Positions 6,146 to 6,220 of a stretch of 33,751 nucleotides of DNA are shown here, one piece after another. Both the position numbers and the translations under genes were made by a program. The stretch is from a virus: IMG/VR virus record IMGVR_UViG_3300017763_000081, positions 1-33,751 of that record. One strand, written 5' to 3'. How positions within the stretch are numbered: the first letter of the stretch is position 1; each line of letters starts with the position of its first letter. The notes under the pieces were generated by a model. It saw only the letters and a list, made by a program, of their open reading frames with translations, made no database searches and was not told the DNA's origin.

Positions 6146-6220
6146 ATGGCTTGGACTAAACCATCAGCAACTGAAATGCGTTTCGGTTTTGAAGTAACAA
6201 TGTACGTAATGAACAAGTAA
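6146..6220 (+). CDS. pqqA: PQQ precursor peptide PqqA
   Basis: This 24-residue ORF has AAAGGAGA at 6132-6139 and is flanked by its own -10 box and a UUCG terminator. The peptide starts [13 protein letters not shown] and continues [11 protein letters not shown]. Its length, the N-terminal W-[TK]-KP segment and the R.G[FL]EVT.Y core are those of PqqA from beta- and gammaproteobacteria, from memory of that family. In PQQ biosynthesis the radical-SAM enzyme PqqE, with chaperone PqqD, joins the side chains of the conserved Glu and Tyr, here Glu16 and Tyr20 with the required three-residue gap. Proteolysis and PqqB/PqqC then give the cofactor. No other pqq gene is in the window, so the peptide would have to use host PqqB-E. 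It sits in a terminator-bounded island between head and tail modules, as a moron would. A convergent peptide of another function is possible but seems unlikely. Confidence 0.88.
   Translation: [24 protein letters not shown]

Follow-up and report, generated by a model that had tools for sequence, protein, structure and literature searches.

A 24-codon pqqA gene in a phage genome and its proposed role in supplying PQQ precursor to methylotroph hosts

PqqA is a substrate rather than an enzyme, and one peptide is consumed for each molecule of the cofactor PQQ. Its cross-linking by PqqE and PqqD was described by Barr et al. 2016, as cited in PMC7678222. The gene has been seen in viruses before: the Lake Baikal virus population VP_266 carries pqqA together with a methanol dehydrogenase (PMC7678222, 2020), and a study of a reservoir names pqqA, pqqD and pqqE among viral genes (PMC13188868). 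In the papers on cultured methylophages that were searched, which were mostly openly accessible and did not include the P19250A paper, no report of pqqA was found: in PMC9004378 PQQ appears only among the vitamins of the medium, the auxiliary genes given in PMC10580990 are others than pqqA, and PMC8163748 describes phage Venkman without it. Viral pqqA is already known, and what appears to be new in the literature searched is a precursor-only gene in the capsid lineage studied here and the presence of the gene across the cultured methylophages found here. The breadth of viral pqqA likewise appears to be unreported in these papers.

The DNA analysed here is a 33,751-base IMG/VR virus record (IMGVR_UViG_3300017763_000081), which we call the window. 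A sequence-only reading of it had proposed that a 24-residue ORF encodes PqqA and that the phage thereby supports PQQ-dependent dehydrogenases of its host.

Identity, signals and setting of the gene

The ORF matches PF08042 over all 19 model positions with 43.5 bits (2.8e-11; cut-off 21.1) and TIGR02107 with 39.8 bits (cut-off 20), i.e., it scores about twice the curated cut-off of both models. It is the single PqqA match in the whole record, which argues that the match is not due to chance. Residues 12–20 read RFGFEVTMY, so that Glu16 and Tyr20 are numbered as proposed, with V-T-M between them and R-x-G-x preceding the Glu. With 24 residues and its own start and ribosome site, the peptide falls within the size range of PqqA (about 22–29 aa), and 201 of 203 distinct viral PqqA copies among the matches listed have 23–25 aa. 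We consider it close to certain that the ORF is a genuine pqqA.

Table 1. Features around the window pqqA and genes of viral contig L488 (order as given).
Sequence	Feature	Position	Strand	Evidence
Window	Major capsid protein, anchor gene of the pqqA slot	4448..5377	+	phrog_371 major head protein 3e-17; PF25209
Window	Terminator 3' of capsid gene	5394..5423	+	Terminator scan
Window	Short lipoprotein-like ORF, between capsid gene and pqqA	5450..5731	+	Weak phrog_36981 match, E 0.0057
Window	Holin-like ORF, immediately upstream of pqqA	5715..6056	+	phrog_2359 holin, E 2e-4; weak PF16083
Window	Possible -10 box TATAAT, no clear -35	6096..6101	+	TATAAT enriched across viral pqqA loci
Window	Shine-Dalgarno AAAGGAGA of pqqA	6132..6139	+	Read in sequence
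Window	pqqA, PQQ precursor peptide, 24 residues	6146..6220	+	Full-length PF08042 and TIGR02107 matches
Window	pqqA intrinsic terminator, 7-bp stem, UUCG loop, T-run	6237..6259	+	Terminator scan, folding
L488	CsgG-like curli export	2422-3237
L488	PQQ-dependent methanol/ethanol-family dehydrogenase	6990-8864		Full-length, 624 aa; TIGR03075 608 bits
L488	Formate dehydrogenase alpha subunit	8944-11784		885 bits
L488	Quinoprotein-associated SoxYZ-like carrier	15071-15790

The Shine-Dalgarno sequence and the terminator that had been noticed beside the gene are both real (Table 1). Among the matches listed, a Shine-Dalgarno core is found at 240 of 254 viral pqqA loci, compared with 44 after shuffling. 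The terminator, AAGGGAC-TTCG-GTCCCTT followed by a T-run, has a folding energy of -11.3 kcal/mol and a fold z of -2.9, and it is one of four terminator-like sites between positions 5350 and 6450, where 0.5 are expected. Terminators lie within 110 bases 3' of 68 of 249 viral pqqA genes among the matches listed, against about 2–5% at control offsets, and 3' of pqqA in 46 of 117 host (Methylophilaceae) loci. The supposed promoter fared less well: the TATAAT hexamer is present, but a sigma-70 scan found promoter-like sites at the window pqqA to be no more frequent than in shuffles, and the promoter of this single copy is unproven. Across viral pqqA loci, TATAAT occurs upstream in 84 of 248 among the matches listed (shuffled mean 45, maximum 61).

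The record is that of a genuine virus, with genes for a capsid, a phage lysozyme and a virion structural protein, and the pqqA gene is also present in cultured phages. The window phage is a tailed phage whose capsid protein is 61–66% identical to those of Planktothrix phage Pag-Yong1, Pelagibacter phages HTVC023P and HTVC027P, and others. The gene lies about 770 bases downstream of the capsid stop, with two short ORFs, one of them holin-like, in between. Its description as part of a structural operon is apt in that it sits between capsid and lysis-like genes on one side and virion genes on the other, but pqqA ends in its own terminator. Elsewhere in the window, a Cpn10 (GroES-like) co-chaperonin precedes the capsid genes (1836-2321; PF00166, 25.4 bits), and positions 16546-19867 contain a cluster of a fatty acid desaturase (PF00487), an acyl carrier protein (PF00550) and two 2OG-Fe(II) oxygenases, perhaps for lipid or surface modification.

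Conservation and breadth of viral pqqA

In related phages pqqA recurs in the same position: it follows the capsid gene by 50–780 bp in most of the closest capsid relatives and in several more distant ones (viral contigs L122, L123, L014, L129, L131, L133, L136, L138, L150 and others). A capsid tree with 68 rows, of which 13 have pqqA, requires the presence label to change seven times, and well-supported branches force five or more of these changes. The close capsid relatives L124–L126 have no pqqA in the sequence examined, and a search for a degenerate copy in relatives without the gene (L124–L126, L134, L139 and others) found no trace. The gene is repeatedly gained or lost in this capsid lineage; its absence from L124–L126 together with the five or more label changes suggests that it is dispensable or host-dependent. 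Repeated gain and loss would be expected if pqqA pays only in PQQ-using hosts.

Where the gene is present, its peptide is conserved. The search seed W..P...EMRFGF leaves the cross-linked residues free, and both Glu and Tyr are kept in 137 of 137 loci found with it among the matches listed (EVTMY in 129, EVTLY in 5, EITMY in 3). Most of these loci are also matched by a residue-fixing scan, so that what can fairly be said is that freeing Glu and Tyr in the search exposed no copy lacking either residue. Loss of either in related phages, named by the sequence-only reading as one of the outcomes that would count against it, was not seen. Among the matches listed, 94 distinct DNA cores of the ATEM type encode only 22 peptides. 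The whole-core pN/pS of 0.10 is biased by the search patterns, and the four codons after Tyr, fixed by no viral search pattern, give the fairer figure of 0.36 overall and 0.17 for the EMRFGF type. Viral pqqA is under purifying selection.

Three DNA-pattern scans of viral contigs, together with the named phages and the window itself, yielded at least 254 usable loci among the matches listed; sorted by their neighbouring genes, these form about 59 groups. All but one are stand-alone among these matches: pqqB adjoins pqqA in a single locus (L312), and the rest are without pqqB-E in the stretch examined. No pqqE scored above the cut-off in the 51 whole viral records with pqqA that were examined; one of the 51 has a PQQ-dependent alcohol dehydrogenase, and the window record has no PQQ-dependent dehydrogenase of the methanol-dehydrogenase kind. 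Stand-alone pqqA is likely, in our view, to be a widespread and overlooked characteristic of methylotroph phages: several unrelated cultured types and hundreds of contigs would supply only the consumable substrate and leave the enzymes to the host. It would have been missed because gene callers skip 24-codon ORFs.

Some of the contigs deserve separate mention. The putative viral contig L488 (IMGVR_UViG_3300025120_009955, 27000-44000 of 72356 bases; pqqA at L038:715-786) carries the genes given in Table 1, and a W-D-Y-D-G motif in its dehydrogenase suggests the XoxF type. It encodes ribonucleotide reductase and GroEL elsewhere, and resembles the Baikal viruses VP_139 and VP_266. Contig L397, which had been assigned to the bin of an uncultured bacterium (Loclat_bin-07551), is a phage-like piece with pqqA, and its neighbouring proteins are 91–97% identical to those of viral contig L020. 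PqqA of a non-Methylophilaceae type occurs in many viral contigs among L209–L320, and some contigs of one such type may be prophages of enteric-like bacteria.

Hosts of the phages with pqqA

Three PqqA queries of different type returned the same 12 of 50,697 phage records: nine phages of Methylophilales/Methylophilaceae, one environmental Caudoviricetes genome and two contigs labelled Acinetobacter, the larger of which has a pqq cluster of bacterial kind. The nine methylophage records (Venkman, P19250A, MEP301, MEP401, MEP402 and four Melnitz) span several phage types, with MEP401 and MEP402 belonging to Zobellviridae and the four Melnitz to Kyanoviridae. In none of them is pqqA annotated as such: there is either nothing or a 'hypothetical' label, and in Melnitz an antisense 'hypothetical protein' overlies the gene. 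In this collection, every pqqA phage with a credible named host infects Methylophilales/Methylophilaceae; the taxonomy names further methylophages (among them MEP431–434, Venkman EXVC038S and HIM624-A), none of which is among the 12 matching records. The Acinetobacter phage MD-2021a contig L208 (CAKLQF020000010.1) was rejected as a virus case, as its pqqA is the first gene of a pqqABCDE cluster next to ppk and the contig looks like bacterial chromosome.

The last 17 residues of the window PqqA have at least 120 matches in 84,980 species genomes, and those listed are in genomes titled Methylotenera, Methylophilus, Methylopumilus, OM43, unresolved beta/proteobacteria or 'uncultured'. All 120 sampled genomes of Methylophilaceae, the family of Methylotenera mobilis 13, have pqqA, in 1–12 copies; only about six of the 120, counted by eye, have a single copy, and G001 and G039 have 12 each. 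Most of the dispersed copies that were fetched (G001–G121) are away from pqqB-E, in recurrent gene neighbourhoods. With multiple dispersed stand-alone copies, the Methylophilaceae themselves already raise precursor dosage.

We consider a methylotroph of the family Methylophilaceae the most likely host of the window phage, judging from its peptide. The PqqA type alone links it to this family, in which pqqB-E were found at 22 of 120 fetched pqqA loci. Isolate capsid relatives of the window phage infect SAR11, Roseobacter and others, and all are without pqqA. The fatty acid desaturase of the window was also tried as a guide to the host; with only about 30% identity to many bacteria, it names none.

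Proposed precursor supply and its alternatives

The best-supported explanation, and in our judgement a probable one, is that pqqA is a precursor-only auxiliary metabolic gene that supplies the consumed PQQ substrate to a methylotroph host. The phage would make extra PqqA, the only part of the PQQ pathway that is spent at one molecule per cofactor; host PqqD and PqqE would cross-link Glu16 to Tyr20 of the phage peptide, and host proteases together with PqqB and PqqC would finish the cofactor. This PQQ would be loaded into methanol dehydrogenase, which is very abundant in the host, and would sustain methanol oxidation in infection. PqqB-E may persist in the infected cell, while new PqqA would end with host transcription, so that the phage copy would sustain supply. 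We infer that pqqA is expressed in infection, that host PqqE uses the product, that PQQ rises and that the phage benefits.

Several published results bear on this. In Gluconobacter, overexpression of pqqA alone is reported to raise PQQ (Wang et al. 2016, cited in PMC7936290). PqqA peptide fed to a cell-free extract was turned into PQQ at 70–80% (Wang et al. 2021, cited in PMC9851590), and five copies of pqqA, three of them stand-alone, are present in a PQQ producer grown on methanol (PMC9851590). In Acetobacter, pqqAB raised PQQ by only 29% and pqqABCDE eightfold (PMC7936290), which argues that PqqA is not the main limit in some organisms. Among the viral contigs, L488 counts for the supply role, having pqqA, a complete PQQ-dependent methanol/ethanol-family dehydrogenase and a SoxYZ-like carrier. 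The dehydrogenases that the sequence-only reading had listed as beneficiaries (methanol, alcohol and glucose) narrow, for Methylophilaceae, to methanol dehydrogenase, whose gene xoxF gives the most abundant transcript of OM43 (PMC5120137).

The same transcript argues against the alternative that the PqqA is real but its PQQ serves something other than methanol energy, such as another quinoprotein or protection, or that the host is not of the Methylophilaceae. Other PqqA types, without host assignment, occur in many viral contigs, and one contig of the window's own lineage (L099) has a non-Methylophilaceae-type peptide in the capsid slot. However, the window phage has a peptide of the Methylophilaceae type, and the pqqA phages with credible hosts infect Methylophilales/Methylophilaceae, in which the PQQ-dependent methanol dehydrogenase is the top transcript (PMC5120137); we regard this alternative as unlikely. 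Less plausible still, and in our view very unlikely, is that excess PqqA acts as a decoy or regulator that occupies PqqD/PqqE or a protease and alters host metabolism without raising PQQ. Carriage of pqqA without any processing gene would fit such a role, but a decoy needs no cross-linked residues, yet every copy among the matches listed keeps the Glu/Tyr pair; moreover, hosts multiply the same gene, and a quinoprotein dehydrogenase accompanies it in at least one phage contig. That pqqA is functionless host DNA picked up by the phage is scarcely credible, and the sequence evidence is already against it: the gene does come and go across the capsid tree, but (i) pN/pS is low, (ii) the translation and termination signals are conserved, (iii) there are about 59 separate gene contexts among the matches listed, and (iv) no pqqB-E is carried along in the stretches examined, apart from the pqqB of L312.

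Precursor supply would, if correct, tie infection to methanol oxidation through a phage gene that feeds the cofactor of methanol dehydrogenase. Methylotrophs of the OM43/LD28 type are important methanol consumers in coastal and fresh water. Phages would then steer a pathway via a consumed peptide substrate and not an enzyme. Gene-length cut-offs hide functional phage genes of this kind. Cultured pairs with pqqA (Venkman on H5P1, MEP401 on FZCC0133) make the idea directly testable.

Among known systems, the nearest to the window gene are the stand-alone bacterial pqqA copies of Methylophilaceae, which share its length, a near-identical peptide, the Glu/Tyr pair, the stand-alone arrangement and often a 3' terminator, but which do not lie in a phage genome downstream of a capsid gene. 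VP_266, a predicted Methylophilaceae phage, likewise has a virus-borne pqqA; it is T4-like and has methanol dehydrogenase, whereas the window phage has an HTVC023P-like capsid and no such dehydrogenase. Cyanophage psbA, an auxiliary metabolic gene, encodes the D1 protein, which is replaced rapidly. In both cases the phage would supply a used-up component of host energy metabolism, but psbA encodes a working protein, whereas pqqA encodes a substrate consumed to make a cofactor.
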